A stretch of 64,000 nucleotides of DNA from Stygiolobus caldivivus (GTDB lineage Archaea > Thermoproteota > Thermoprotei_A > Sulfolobales > Sulfolobaceae), in contig NZ_AP024597.1 in NCBI RefSeq assembly GCF_019704315.1, positions 992,001 to 1,056,000 of the forward strand. The letters are read 5' to 3'. Position numbers and translations under genes: made by a program. Positions within the stretch are counted from its first letter, which is position 1, and every line of letters starts with the position of its first letter. This document shows, in pieces, positions 4,466 through 62,378 of this stretch. The notes under the pieces were generated by a model. It made no database searches, was not told where the DNA came from, and saw only the letters and a program-made list of their open reading frames with translations.

Positions 4466-4803
4466 ATTAAGCCCGACCCCACTACCGCCTTAGAGGAGAT
4501 GACGCCCCTCCCAACTACCCCCTCGTAGACCCCTTGTTATACTTCTCGTTTAGCGGGCAGTTAGGGTGACGAAGGGCGTCACCTAAGAGGAGGGCTCCCC
4601 CCGTAACGTCCAGCCCTTGTGAGAGGGCACTGACGCTCTCCCCACACCGAGCCACCTAGGTGGCCCAGAGTCATTAACACCGCTGAAAATTATGACAAAA
4701 TTCGGACACCCGTACCCTCGGCGAGGTTTTCCAGTCCCCTTTTTTGTAAACTTTACCGCGATAGTCGTCCCCTTTAGACCGCCATCCCTACGGTCAGCAG
4801 TTA
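4466..4803. other. GC-rich non-coding stretch
   Basis: No gene is seen. The base composition is richer in G and C than the flanking genes, as in most non-coding DNA of this window. Confidence 0.4.
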
Positions 4804-5060
4804 CTCCACTTTTCCTTTGTAATACGAAACACTCGTATTACGGATAAAGTTTTTAGGTCTGTGCCTTACTTATTGAAAAACGTGAAGCTAGAATGGTACC
4901 GGGTACTGTTGAGGGCGAGTCCAGCGTCAGGGCCGTTACCGTCCCGCAGGGCGTGGAGGGGAGCCCCCAGTGCCGTTCAAAACTATTTAGGAGATTTACC
5001 GTTATTGATGAAAATCTTTAAGCCACGTCAAAGTAGGATAACTGCTATCGCTCGTTTTAT
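4804..5060 (+). repeat. dispersed element, copy A
   Basis: One of four related sequences, with copies near 27524, 54996 and 58270. It starts with TTTTCC and two boxes, GTAATAC (4819-4825) and GTATTAC (4835-4841), then ATAAAGTTTTTAG. The 3' core (about 4975-5050) matches copies C and D base for base at most positions, ending AAAGTAGGATAACTGCT. A 73-codon frame starting with GTG at 4861 runs through this copy. In copies C and D the same frame is stopped by TAA just after the conserved F-x-x-R, so the element is either a decayed gene family or a non-coding RNA/MITE-like unit. Confidence 0.6.
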
Positions 5061-9138: not shown

Positions 9139-9448
9139 TGAATGTTTTTATACTACTTCTTTTCTTATTTTAACTTTCCTCTTATATAAGCTTTGCTATA
9201 CTTGACAGTTTTATCATGACTGAATTTTTGTCATTCCTGTGAAATTTCGGGAGTTTGATAAAGAGATTTACGTCTTACGTACCTTACAAAGAGAATTTTT
9301 CCGCTCACTGACAAATTGAAAGTAATTCCCGCTAAAATCCGGGAATTATGAGGGCGAAATACTCTACATTGCATAGAAATACTACGAAAAATAAACTATA
9401 CGACCGATAACGGGCGTGGACGAAGTTATGTCCCCCACACATGACGGC
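9139..9448 (-). promoter_or_regulatory. leader of array 1
   Basis: About 310 bp, nearly identical to the array 2 leader and clearly related to those of arrays 4 and 5. On the minus strand it holds a stem (AATTCCCG/CGGGAATT), a GTCAGTGAG-type motif, and the TATA box TTATATAAG about 50 bp before the first repeat. Confidence 0.85.
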
Positions 9449-21690: not shown

Positions 21691-22000
21691 TGAATGTTTT
21701 TATACTATGTCTATCCTTAATTTTGCTCTTCTCTTATATAAGCTTTGTTGTACTTTACAGTTTTGTCATGACTGAATTTTTGTCACTCCCTTGAAATTTC
21801 GGGAGTTTGATAAAGAGATTTACGTCTTACGTACTCTCTGTGAAGAATTTTTCCGCTCACTGACTAATTGAAAGCAATTCCCGCTAAAATCCGGGAATTA
21901 GGAGGGCGAAATACTTCATATTGCATAGAAGGAGTACGAAAAATAGACTATACGACCGGTCCTGGACCGGGGCGGAGGTTATGCCCTACACACATGACGG
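21691..22000 (-). promoter_or_regulatory. leader of array 2
   Basis: About 310 bp, nearly identical to the leader of array 1, with the same stem (AATTCCCG/CGGGAATT), GTCAGTGAG-type motif and TTATATAAG TATA box. Confidence 0.85.
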
Positions 22001-25374: not shown

Positions 25375-26214
25375 TCACCTCCAACACACCTCGTAGAATG
25401 GGCAACTCTCCGGGCATTTTACCGGTTTCCCGGGGTCCCTGCCGTTCTGCACCATGTCCACCACTTCGTCCCTCCTGTCGAGGAAAGCCCTCCTTAAATC
25501 GGGGGAGACGTAATGGCCTTCAAACCTCACTTCGACGTTATTGGGGTACCCGTTGACGTAGACCAACAGCCCGTAGTCCACCGGTGTCTCCGTGACCGAC
25601 TCTATGGCGAGTGCGTACCCGGCTAGGGCGAACTTGTGGAAGTCCTCCTTTTTACCGGTCTTGACTTCGATGACGGTGAACTCACCTAAGGCGTCGATGG
25701 TCAGCCTGTCCGACATCCCTATAGCCGACCCGTCTACCCTAACTTCCGTAGACCAAGGGAGGAAGCCCACAGAGTCCCCGCCGTAAAACGCCCTCGCCTC
25801 GGCTACTTGGGAAGACCATATGAGGACCAAGTTACCGTAAACTTTCCTGCAGTAGTCGTACAGGTCTTGGGGGCAGTACTCCTGCTCTAAGTAACTCTCT
25901 TTCACCACGTCGTAGGGGTCCTTACCCAGCACGTACATCCTCTTAACGTCGTTGAGGGCCTTTGAGAACACCTTGTGTACCGCCTGCCCGTAAGCCAGCT
26001 GGGGCCTCTCCGCCCCCTTCTCGCCTAGTACCCTCCTCAGGTAGACGTCCCTCTTCGTGGGGCAATAGTCGTAAGCTATGTCCGACATGGTAAGCCCCAT
26101 GTACGCCCTGGGCTTTACGGGCGGGGAATAATAGTGCCAGCCCCTGAGCTCGTCGGGGACCGGGTCGGACTCCCTGATGTGGTGGAGGCGCTTGAGGTGC
26201 TGTCTCCAGATCAT
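25375..26214 (-). CDS. csa1: Csa1, Cas4-like adaptation protein of type I-A
   Basis: The protein has 279 residues with a clear ATG. It is a Cas4-family RecB-like nuclease with C51, H80, MSDRLTID (D169), VIEVKTGKK (E183, K185), a QYR-like helix (FHKFALAGYALAIE, Q replaced) and the C-terminal cysteines C267, C271 and C277. Csa1 is found with Cas1/2/4 in type I-A adaptation operons of Sulfolobales and takes part in spacer acquisition. It is the first gene of the operon. Confidence 0.94.
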   Translation of the reverse strand: MIWRQHLKRLHHIRESDPVPDELRGWHYYSPPVKPRAYMGLTMSDIAYDYCPTKRDVYLRRVLGEKGAERPQLAYGQAVHKVFSKALNDVKRMYVLGKDPYDVVKESYLEQEYCPQDLYDYCRKVYGNLVLIWSSQVAEARAFYGGDSVGFLPWSTEVRVDGSAIGMSDRLTIDALGEFTVIEVKTGKKEDFHKFALAGYALAIESVTETPVDYGLLVYVNGYPNNVEVRFEGHYVSPDLRRAFLDRRDEVVDMVQNGRDPGKPVKCPESCPFYEVCWR

Positions 26215-26233: not shown

Positions 26234-26266
26234 GTAAAGATAAGTATTACCAAGATTTGGTATTAC
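26234..26266 (-). promoter_or_regulatory. csa1 promoter with two GTAATAC boxes
   Basis: On the csa1 strand, GTAATAC occurs twice, at 26266-26260 and 26250-26244, 16 bp apart start to start. A TATA-like CTTATCTTTA follows at once, about 26 bp before the ATG. The middle contains a perfect inverted repeat TACCAA-GAT-TTGGTA (26248-26262). The position just upstream of TATA fits an activator. Csa3a is known to activate csa1-cas1-cas2-cas4 in Saccharolobus islandicus, and a csa3 gene lies next door; Csa3 binding here is inference. Confidence 0.65.
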
Positions 26267-26609
26267 TAATTCCCGGGTTTTAGAGGGAGTACGCCCGCGT
26301 GTAGCCCTTGGAGCCGCATTTACCGGGCACGAGGTGTGGGCTGAGGACGGGGGACCCTCCGTGGGGTCGAGGTGAGCCCGGGGGCCTAACACACTTTAAA
26401 TGGGGTAGCTGAGCAGCGACACGCCCAAGATGGGCTAGGGACTTGAAGCACCTCAGACTGTACGTTTTGTGTCACGTGTGCAGCGGCACGCCCAGCGTGG
26501 GCCCGGTTTTCCTTAAGTGAAAAACGGTAGCCCGTATCAGGCCGCGGTTACCCCCCCCCCCGCCTACTGTCAACGGGCCCAGGTCACGCCCCGCAGTCCC
26601 GGTCTACCG
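26267..26609. other. GC-rich non-coding stretch with a CRISPR-period repeat
   Basis: GCAGCG(A/G)CACGCCCA occurs at 26413 and 26480 (67 bp apart), each followed by a TGGGC. A run of 11 C lies at 26551-26561. No gene is seen. Confidence 0.45.
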
Positions 26610-26610
26610 C

Positions 26611-26655
26611 GGGAAAAACCGGGGTTTTCCCGGGCTGTGTAATAAATATTAAAGT
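26611..26655 (+). promoter_or_regulatory. csa3 promoter and inverted repeat
   Basis: An inverted repeat GGGAAAA-ACCGGG-GTTTTCCC (26611-26631) is followed by AATAAATATTAAA, centred about 26 bp before the csa3 ATG. This is a candidate site for autoregulation or another operator. Confidence 0.45.
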
Positions 26656-26673: not shown

Positions 26674-27327
26674 ATGAAGTCCTATGTGTTCACGATGGGG
26701 GTACACGAGGACTTCGCCATAAGGAGGCTGGTGTCCACTAACGCGGCGAGGGAGGACGACGTCGTGTGCCTGTTCAGGTCCCCCATGACGAACGGGAACA
26801 GGAGGGCGTTAAACGCGTTAAACGCTGTTATGTCTAAGATGGGCTTAAGGGAGGCCGTCGCGAGGGAGGTGAGGGTAAGCGGGGGGATCCTCGACGTGGT
26901 GGACGAGGTCACCGGGGTACTTAACGACCTCAAAGACCCGTTAGTAGTAGACGTCTCCGGCGGGGAGAGTAAGGCGATGATGCTAGGCGTAGTCTTGTCT
27001 TTAGCTATAAACGGCAGGGCCGGTAGGGTGTACGTAGAGGAGGACGAGGAGTACTACTTCTCTATCGAAGACTTCAGGACGGCGGTGGAGGGCATAAAGG
27101 GGGAGGCGCTCGCCCTGTTAACAAACGTGGTGGCACAGCCCGGGATAAGGTATTCCGAGCTGGCCGAGAAGACGGGTAAGAAGTTGAAGACGGTGATGAA
27201 CTCTGTGGGCGTGTTGAAAAAGAAGAGGTTGGTCTACCAGAGGGGGAGGGGAGAAGGGGTCTACCCTACAAAGCTGGGCGTCATAGTGTGTAAGAGTAGC
27301 GTTGCCGGACGCGACCTATGTAGGTGA
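26674..27327 (+). CDS. csa3: Csa3, CARF-wHTH transcription regulator
   Basis: The protein has 217 residues. The N-terminal CARF domain (1-135) has the typical DVSGGESKAMML loop (D93-G97) that binds cyclic oligoadenylate in relatives. The C-terminal winged helix (about 143-205) reads YSELAEKTGKKLKTVMNSVGVLKKKRLV. It is divergent from csa1, the place of Csa3a, the known activator of the adaptation operon. It is the only csa3 gene in the window, so regulation of the interference genes must rely on it or on a regulator elsewhere. Confidence 0.93.
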   Translation: MKSYVFTMGVHEDFAIRRLVSTNAAREDDVVCLFRSPMTNGNRRALNALNAVMSKMGLREAVAREVRVSGGILDVVDEVTGVLNDLKDPLVVDVSGGESKAMMLGVVLSLAINGRAGRVYVEEDEEYYFSIEDFRTAVEGIKGEALALLTNVVAQPGIRYSELAEKTGKKLKTVMNSVGVLKKKRLVYQRGRGEGVYPTKLGVIVCKSSVAGRDLCR

Positions 27328-27523
27328 CGAGGCCTTAAGCTGGGCCCGCGAGACCCTTCGTGGCTGCCCCTTACCTTACACAGGCTTAACACCCAAGGCC
27401 GAGCAGGGCGGTGGCAGTGAGCCCCGCTTCGGTATGACCAAGGGTAATAAGTGCTTACGCAGGCCTTCTACCTAGTTGCTAGGGCCGCTAAGGGGCTTGA
27501 ACCCTTTAACGTGCAGCAGTTGT
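27328..27523. other. non-coding stretch
   Basis: Nothing recognisable is seen. Confidence 0.35.
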
Positions 27524-27730
27524 CCTACTTTTCCTTTGTAATACTAAACCACCGGTAATACTAATAAAGTTTTTAGTTTTTTACGTCCGGTCTATTGGAA
27601 AAATATGGAGTACTAAAAGGGGCCGGGCATTACTAGGGGCTAGCTCGGTATCGGGGGGCCCTCCAGACCAGAGTGCGTGGAGGAGGACTCCCCATACCTG
27701 TTGAAAATAGCCTGGTAATTCGGGGCTCTT
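27524..27730 (+). repeat. dispersed element, copy B (truncated)
   Basis: It has the boxes GTAATAC at 27538-27544 and again at 27555-27561, then AATAAAGTTTTTAG and TTTTACGTCCGG. It matches copy D over about 170 bp, including TATTGGAAAAATATG and AGTACTAAAAGG. The 3' core is cut off exactly where an insertion-sequence end begins (27730). Confidence 0.65.
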
Positions 27731-27751
27731 GATAGTGTCGTCATTAAGCTA
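27730..27751. mobile_element. insertion-sequence end
   Basis: A 22-bp sequence beginning TGATAGTGTC and ending TTAAGCTA occurs here and, exactly, at 52761-52782. Here it overlaps the stop of the transposase remnant, so it is most likely the terminal repeat of that element. Confidence 0.55.
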
Positions 27752-28067
27752 CAAATTCTGGGATTAGCCTTCTCTCCCATGAGGCCAGCGCTATAGAATA
27801 CTTCACCATATTTATACTCCTGTTAACAGCCTTCGTCGCCCTCTTGAAACGCACAAGCCTGTCCCTCAGTGAGGAGTGGAAGGACTCGTTGGGGTTAACC
27901 GGTGAGACTACCGTGTGGTTTTTTAACCAAAAGTAAACACTGTAATCATCACTAACCCACCTACCGTCGTCAGGCAAGTGGTCCTTGACCTCACGAAAAG
28001 TGTCCTCGTCCCTATCACCCACAGAGTAAACTAGGTAAAACCCGAGGTAAGAGCGTGGGACAAGCTA
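27744..28067 (-). pseudogene. IS1-like transposase, C-terminal remnant
   Basis: The frame is open from about 28067 to 27744. A GTG at 28022 would give 92 residues, but homologous sequence continues upstream (FYLVYSVGDRDEDTFREV) to an in-frame TAG. The pattern SVGDR-x-EDTF, DDYSVYFWL, ESFHSSLRDRLVRFKRATKAVN resembles the C-terminal half of IS1-family DDE transposases, which are usually about 230 residues. Roughly the first half is missing, so it cannot be active. It sits inside dispersed element copy B. Confidence 0.7.
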
Positions 28068-30762: not shown

Positions 30763-31007
30763 AATAGTTCTATATAAAAAACAGTATTTCTGCCTTTTTA
30801 TTCCCGGCCTTTTCCGGGAATTCCTTTCAATTTGTCTTTGAACAGACAGCTTCTAATGAAAGAGAATGATGTCCATGATTCTCTACTTCGAACTCCCTAA
30901 ATTTCAAGGGAGTTGAAAAAATTCAATAATGATAAATACTTTAGGGGGAGTAAAGTTTATAAATGAGAAAGGTCAATAGTATTTTTGAAGAAGTATAAAA
31001 ATCTTCA
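30763..31007 (+). promoter_or_regulatory. leader of array 3
   Basis: It has the same order of elements as the other leaders (ATTCCCGG/CCGGGAATT stem, CTTTCAATTTGTC, ACTCCCTAAATTTC, AAGTATAAAAATCTTCA before the first repeat) but is clearly diverged from them in the middle. Confidence 0.8.
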
Positions 31008-37221
<6,214 letters not shown>

Positions 37222-39490: not shown

Positions 39491-39750
39491 TAGTCTATTT
39501 TTCGTATTTCTTCTGTGTGGTAATAAGTATTTCGCCCTCATAATTCCCGGTTTTCAGCGGGAATTACTTTCAATTTGTCAGTGAGCAATAAAGTTCTTTA
39601 GGTGGAGTACGTAAGACGTAAATCTCTTTATCAAACTCCCGAAATTTCTTGGGAGTGATTAAAATTCAGTAATGATAAAACTGTCAAGTATAGCAAAGCT
39701 TATATAAGAGAAGAACGAAATTAAGGATAGAAATAGTATAAAAACATTCA
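39491..39750 (+). promoter_or_regulatory. leader of array 4
   Basis: About 260 bp, closely matching the leaders of arrays 1, 2 and 5: stem AATTCCCG/CGGGAATT, GTCAGTGAG, ACTCCCGAAATTTC, TATA box TTATATAAG at 39700-39708 and AGTATAAAAACATTCA before the first repeat. Confidence 0.85.
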
Positions 39751-58269: not shown

Positions 58270-58530
58270 AGTTAACCCTGTCACAGCAGTCATCCTACTT
58301 TAACGCGTCTTAAATGTTTTCATCAGGACCGGTGCCCCTCCTAGACGGTTTTCAACGAATTTGAGGAGTTCTCCTCCGCGCCCGTTAGGTCAGTGGGCTC
58401 CCCGATGCTGAGCTAGATCTTAGTAATGCCCAGCTCCTTTTAGTACTTCATATTTTTCCAATAAACCGGACGTAAAATCTAAAAACTTTATCAGTATTGC
58501 TGGTGCTTGGTATTACCAAGGAAAAGTGGG
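58270..58530 (-). repeat. dispersed element, copy D (most complete with copy A)
   Basis: On the minus strand it has GTAATAC (58516-58510) and GCAATAC (58500-58494), 16 bp apart, then TGATAAAGTTTTTAG and TTTTACGTCCGG. It matches copy B over about 170 bp and copies A and C over the 3' core ending AAAGTAGGATGACTGCT. Confidence 0.65.
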
Positions 58531-58821
58531 ATAACTGTTGTTACGCATAACAACTGTTACACTTAACAACATTGGTACATAGTACGTATAAAAACGTGTT
58601 ATAATAAGGTTATAATTCAGGCTATCCAGGGTGGTTTCGCGTATACTGTATTATATAAACATTGAATTATACTAATTTGATAGAGAAAATTATAATTTGC
58701 AAAGGACACGCGAAAGACCACCTAATCAACGCAGGACTTGAAAAATATGAAGGGTAAAAAAAAAAAACAAGTATAGCATAAGGGGTTTTAACGCCTATCG
58801 GTTTAGGTTCGTCTTTATCGG
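58531..58821. other. AT-rich non-coding stretch
   Basis: No gene is seen. It contains repeated CAACTGTT/AACAAC stretches and a run of 12 A near 58757. Confidence 0.4.
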
Positions 58822-62114: not shown

Positions 62115-62378
62115 TAGATAGAATTACTAACATTTTTTGTCTATGTGATATAGAGTATTTTGCCCTTATAATTCCCGGTTTTCAGCGGGAATTACTTTCA
62201 ATTTGTCAGTGAGTGGAGAAATTCTCTACCATAAGTACGTGAACCGTAAATCTCTTTATCAAACTCCCGAAATTTCAAGGGAATGACAAAAATTCAGTCA
62301 TGATAAAACCGCAAAGCACAGTAAAGCTTATATAAGAGAAGAGCAAAATTAAGGATAGACAAAGTATAAAAACATTCA
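62115..62378 (+). promoter_or_regulatory. leader of array 5
   Basis: Close match to the array 4 leader: stem AATTCCCG/CGGGAATT, GTCAGTGAG, ACTCCCGAAATTTC, TATA box TTATATAAG at 62328-62336, then AGTATAAAAACATTCA before the first repeat. Confidence 0.85.

Follow-up and report, generated by a model that had tools for sequence, protein, structure and literature searches.

The window, a 64-kb stretch of Stygiolobus caldivivus DNA, carries csa1, the first gene of the spacer acquisition cassette, the divergent regulator gene csa3, the leaders of five CRISPR arrays and three dispersed elements, A, B and D (Table 1). A sequence-only reading had placed two GTAATAC boxes 16 bp apart directly before the TATA box of csa1, and this was confirmed: the boxes lie together in an imperfect palindrome, and the TATA-like sequence TTATCTTTA comes next. 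The box core is itself near-palindromic (GTAWTAC), so the strand of a box, or the "same orientation" of two boxes, carries little information.

Table 1. Features of the csa1–csa3 region, the array leaders and the dispersed elements. Coordinates refer to the window, except in the last row, where they refer to genomes G016 and G030.
Feature	Position	Strand	Details
csa1 (Cas4/Csa1 exonuclease), acquisition cassette gene 1	25375-26214	-	PF06023 8e-85, TIGR01896 3e-109
csa1 operator box 1, GTAATAC	26260-26266	-	-52..-46 from csa1 ATG; identical in G028, G029, G030
csa1 operator box 2, GTAATAC	26244-26250	-	-36..-30, expected BRE place
23-bp imperfect palindrome GTAATACCAA-atc-TTGGTAATAC, containing both boxes	26244-26266	-	sequence, own-genome search
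CAPPa TCCC-N10-GGGA, published Csa3a-linked motif	26271-26288	.	-74..-57 of csa1
Second CAPPa	26597-26614	.	-77 of csa3
csa3 (Csa3a-type CARF-wHTH regulator), divergent from csa1	26674-27327	+	PF22662 1e-25, TIGR01884 3e-41
Array 1 leader	9235-9344	.	CAPPa at -206 (9327-9344), one-mismatch copy at -114; no GTAWTAC pair
Array 2 leader	21787-21896	.	CAPPa at -114, -206; no GTAWTAC pair
Array 3 leader	30802-30911	.	CAPPa at -206, -114; no GTAWTAC pair
Array 4 leader	39545-39654	.	CAPPa at -206, -114; no GTAWTAC pair
Array 5 leader	62173-62282	.	CAPPa 62173-62190 (-206), 62265-62282 (-114 from first repeat); no GTAWTAC pair
Element A, MITE-like ISC1217-type, both terminal inverted repeats	4795-5046	+	boxes 4819-4825 (+), 4835-4841 (-)
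Element B, ISC1217-type, 5' terminal repeat present, 3' end cut	27514-27729	+	boxes 27538-27544, 27555-27561 (+)
Element D, MITE-like ISC1217-type, both terminal repeats	58284-58540	-	boxes 58510-58516 (exact), 58494-58500 (one change)
GTANTAC beside transposase starts	G016 36336, 1061613, 1063145, 1087618; G030 1135014, 1156742

The GTAATAC pair of the csa1 promoter

Shuffles of the window gave an expectation of 0.00 for the spaced box pair, and across the 2.96-Mb genome the exact pair with a gap of 8–11 bp occurred 15 times, against 0 for the reversed pattern; the pair is therefore not a product of chance. Most of the 15 occurrences belong to element copies, and besides csa1 there are four others, including one in a conserved coding stretch. 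The 23-bp palindrome as a whole had no second exact (0-mismatch) match in the genome. Its exact matches in the genome_contigs and viral_contigs collections, three unrelated bacterial sequences and one viral contig, were taken as chance. Reading the family-wide pair matches as one regulon was rejected, because conserved coding sequence and lineage repeats account for several of them. Two loci that are not ISC1217, L122 (645-657) and L118 (499-511), both have GGTATTACCAA with similar sequence (TAATGACT...) after it and perhaps represent a further small repeat family carrying the box.

The csa1 promoter was then compared with those of three genomes from a different genus (G028, G029, G030), in which csa1 is 78-79% identical to that of S. 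caldivivus. The two boxes are identical at 14/14 positions in all three, and the 23-bp palindrome at 20 to 23 of 23 positions (87-100%), whereas the upstream region from -190 to -75 is merely 20-23% identical. All three promoters repeat the S. caldivivus order: TCCC-N10-GGGA stands at -74, with one mismatch in G029, and is separated by a 4-bp linker from the GTAATAC boxes at -52 and -36. Boxes kept beside so diverged a region indicate that the csa1 site is under selection, as expected of a genuine operator, and support its earlier reading as a real regulatory site. Judged by this comparison, the pair is a true operator in its own right, placed downstream of the Csa3a site and before the TATA-like sequence.

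Nearly all other csa1 promoters checked in the family have the TCCC-N10-GGGA palindrome at -73 to -75, some with a mismatch, and lack the GTAATAC pair; among the promoters checked, the GTAATAC palindrome is restricted to S. caldivivus and G028-G030. The distance from TCCC-N10-GGGA to the ATG is constant with or without the GTAATAC palindrome, which shows that the pair arose in place, and insertion of an IS as its source was rejected on the same ground. The csa1–csa3 intergenic region spans ~460 bp in S. caldivivus compared with ~170 bp in G028, and the widened region includes a stretch of roughly twelve C (26550-26562).

CAPPa, Csa3a and Csa3b

The sequence-only reading had named Csa3 as the simplest candidate for the factor shared by csa1 and the elements. 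Csa3a is linked instead to TCCC-N-GGGA, the CRISPR-associated promoter palindrome (CAPPa), which tracks Csa3a across Sulfolobales at acquisition promoters and leaders (PMC8699464). The Csa3a footprint on the S. islandicus csa1 promoter extends from -81 to -42 (Liu 2015, PMC4333418), and in the S. islandicus leader Csa3a binds the distal motif, at -143 to -94 (PMC9456107). Csa3a binding of CAPPa in vitro is non-specific (PMC8699464), so the link between the two is one of footprint, position and co-occurrence. TCCC-N10-GGGA occurs 12 times in the window, against 0-3 times for every other spacing from 4 to 19, and just one of the 12 copies falls outside the csa1, csa3 and leader sites. CAPPa at -77 of csa3 suggests that this gene may be autoregulated. 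The palindrome GTAATACCAA-nnn-TTGGTAATAC at csa1 does not contain TCCC-N-GGGA; the true CAPPa adjoins it. A search for the GTAWTAC pair, with one mismatch allowed, returned none in the five leaders, and the S. caldivivus csa3 promoter has none either. Thus CAPPa, present at csa1, csa3 and all leaders, has the distribution expected of the Csa3a site, which GTAATAC lacks, and the proposal of Csa3 as the common factor was not supported. Both the GTAATAC pair and CAPPa are palindromic and precede BRE/TATA in the csa1 promoter; they differ in half-sites (TCCC/GGGA vs GTAWTAC) and in that CAPPa also stands at leaders and csa3 and is conserved family-wide.

Csa3a could in principle bind the pair as well, with a second dimer beside the CAPPa-bound one activating csa1 and, incidentally, the elements. 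The csa3 gene is adjacent to and divergent from csa1, a footprint such as that in S. islandicus would reach box 1 (PMC4333418), two Csa3 dimers bind long DNA cooperatively (PMC8699464), and the palindrome of G028-G030 is without any other match at <2 mismatches, which would fit a local regulator. Against these points, every leader, csa1 and csa3 carry CAPPa and not GTAATAC as the common site, the pair is absent from csa1 of other genera that have both Csa3a and CAPPa, half-sites and spacing differ between the two palindromes, and cdvA and cran1 (below) have the box without CRISPR context. We consider binding of the pair by Csa3a distinctly improbable.

A second, repressive regulatory site at csa1 has a precedent in the Csa3b site of S. 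islandicus, at -168 to -128 (PMC7480081). That site lies upstream of the Csa3a site, whereas the GTAATAC pair lies between the Csa3a site and TATA, and in the related csa1 promoters no GTAATAC was seen at the Csa3b-site position.

Some further observations concern CAPPa and the arrays. The CAPPa copies are 92 bp apart in all five leaders (counting the one-mismatch copy at -114 of array 1), and the same spacing appears beside csa3 in G028 and G030 (L169, L168: 6275 and 6367). In G028-G030 the divergent genes csa1 and csa3 have just one CAPPa between them. Array 3 contains one spacer with its repeats twice, letter for letter (35749-35838, 35943-36032). A related-locus search for Csa3 relatives in genome_contigs returned none.

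Identity of the dispersed elements

The box pair had also been described at the heads of A, B and D, and it is there in all of them, at spacings of 16, 17 and 16 bp, respectively, with ATAAAG after each pair and one change in D. In A the two boxes form an inverted pair. The elements are non-coding MITE-like relics or derivatives of the ISC1217 insertion sequence. Copies of ISC1217 start with CAGCAGTTATYCTACTTT, and complete ones finish with its inverted repeat; accordingly, the terminal repeats CAGCAGTTATYCTACTTT / AAAGTAGRATAACTGCTG, common to full-length copies, are found at both ends of A and D. A whole-genome search with the 5' part of element B recovered >20 copies in the S. caldivivus genome. 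Two copies are longer, L120/L034 (C1:86089) and L121/L035 (C1:870594), and in these the boxes and TATA are immediately followed by reading frames. In L121 the transposase frame is split by an in-frame stop, and its two halves match the archaeal ISC1217 transposase (PF04693) at 8e-50 and 1e-63; L120 is more broken, and no intact ISC1217 copy was seen in the genome. Elements A, B and D share the terminal repeats and 5' promoter region of L121 and L120 and differ from them in having no transposase gene. An Rfam search of the elements found no known RNA family, and reading the ends of element A revealed no clear target-site duplication. Element B is adjoined and cut by a second repeat family (27730-27900), of which a 98% identical copy lies at C1:2924938-2925106. 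Co-activation of the elements with spacer acquisition, as the sequence-only reading had it, would yield no protein from A, B and D, since they are without a transposase gene, and this part of the reading was not supported.

Relatives of the IS are present in 15/31 genomes of the family, and many of their copies, from several genera, keep the inverted pair GTARTAC...GTAYTAC just before TATA. The pairs at csa1 and in ISC1217 might nevertheless be unrelated, the element pair being an IS promoter or subterminal repeat shared by descent (perhaps bound by transposase or acting in cis as an end) and the csa1 palindrome serving otherwise. The entire first 70 bp of the S. caldivivus copies are conserved, so that the boxes do not stand out from their surroundings within the elements; the second box of the G028/G029 elements is mostly GTACTAC, not GTAATAC; and the CC/GG extensions are inner in csa1 and outer in ISC1217. 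Core, spacing of 16-17 bp and place before TATA are alike in both, however, and several other transposase genes have GTANTAC by their start. That the two pairs are unrelated seems to us quite unlikely.

Likeness to the aCcr1 box and possible cell-cycle control

aCcr1 is a ribbon-helix-helix (RHH) cell-cycle repressor of Sulfolobales, and its box was reportedly defined in 2023, by Yang and by Li. The consensus that we assume for it is anchored here solely by the promoters we read. Boxes of this kind lie between TATA and the translation start, downstream of TATA, and cdvA is the defining target. To our knowledge, none of the genes of the CRISPR adaptation module has been reported as an aCcr1 target. 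In both G030 and G016, GTATTACC stands directly before the ATG of cdvA; the cdvA of S. caldivivus itself was not found in the 400 kb in which it was sought. GTATTACC also lies between TATA and start of G016 cran1, an OLD-family ATPase gene whose product matches the published Cran1 residues throughout (T37, E246/E247, H280/S281). An aCcr1 recognition sequence with binding in EMSA has been reported for the cran1 promoter (PMC12796447). Likewise, segA and cren7 are reported to be aCcr1-regulated (PMC12284271, PMC12796447), and in G016 both have the one-mismatch box GTATTAT upstream. Occurrence of the motif before many unrelated housekeeping genes would, by the standard that the sequence-only reading set, have told against it, and the boxes at cdvA and cran1 go part of the way there.

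Similar boxes were found in two further settings. In csa3a of G015, G016, G018 and G027 (L234, L235, L236, L237), GGTAATAC(C/T) lies between TATA and ATG, and in G013 and G014 this box is degenerate; the probability of GTANTAC by chance in any 30-bp window is ~0.009. Transposase genes of several IS families (IS630-, IS5- and IS1-type by Pfam) have GTANTAC near the start, after a TATA-like sequence. Near gene starts overall, GTANTAC showed no clear excess over other palindromes, and at multi-copy genes a small one (2/8 vs 3/108). The class is thus not clearly enriched, and the boxes at transposase starts remain a lead.

The site at csa1 shares the GTATTACC core with cdvA and cran1. In position, the csa3a boxes of other genera match aCcr1 boxes, being placed between TATA and start, whereas csa1 and ISC1217 have two boxes, upstream of TATA. 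Given this placement and the differing sides of the extensions, we describe the csa1 site as aCcr1-like on its sequence and do not count it as a member of the aCcr1 box class.

Another host factor, for example of the Lrp, MarR or GntR type, could bind TTGGTAWTACCAA at csa1 and ISC1217, the likeness to aCcr1 being accidental. The boxes of cdvA and cran1 are shorter than the extended palindrome TTGGTAWTACCAA, single boxes of this form are present elsewhere in the genome, and a GntR gene of the YtrA type is present. Yet no candidate gene is linked to the site, and in S. acidocaldarius YtrA controls very few genes and recognises a 14-bp motif that overlaps the TSS (PMC6746942). GntR/YtrA was rejected as the binder, because the published motif and regulon do not fit (PMC6746942); some other factor of this sort we regard as unlikely.

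Our preferred reading, to which we give a probability of about 0.5, is that an aCcr1-type RHH cell-cycle repressor uses the csa1 pair as its operator, at a place distinct from the Csa3a site. What we observed comprises the boxes, how they are conserved at csa1, the occurrence of the box at the published targets cdvA and cran1, CAPPa sites that stand apart from it and the identity of the elements; from these we infer binding of aCcr1, or of a viral homologue, at the pair, repression and cell-cycle gating. One RHH dimer would occupy each near-palindromic GTAWTAC box, and at csa1 a neighbouring pair of dimers would mask BRE/TATA and keep the gene from being transcribed. The repressor would thereby oppose Csa3a, which would act from CAPPa as the activator of csa1. 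The same type of box is found in the ISC1217 transposase promoter and in the csa3a promoters of other Sulfolobaceae. Repression is likelier than activation, since box 2 overlaps BRE/TATA and aCcr1-repressed genes carry this box after TATA, ahead of the start codon.

Such a repressor would bear on how archaea restrain adaptation when it is not needed, for which the known inputs are the activator Csa3a and the repressor Csa3b. With aCcr1-type boxes at csa1 (or csa3a) and at some transposase genes, acquisition may be gated by the cell cycle, and spacer acquisition is perhaps silenced by viral aCcr1 homologues. In its broadest form, which we advance tentatively and hold to be rather unlikely as a whole, acquisition in Sulfolobaceae would be under cell-cycle control: around division aCcr1 would silence csa1 in S. 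caldivivus and G028-G030 and csa3a elsewhere, together with transposases, and viral aCcr1 homologues would thereby stop both host division and new CRISPR memory. If this is true, memory formation and transposition would be tied to the cell cycle, and viral ribbon-helix-helix proteins would gain a second use, that of blocking adaptation.
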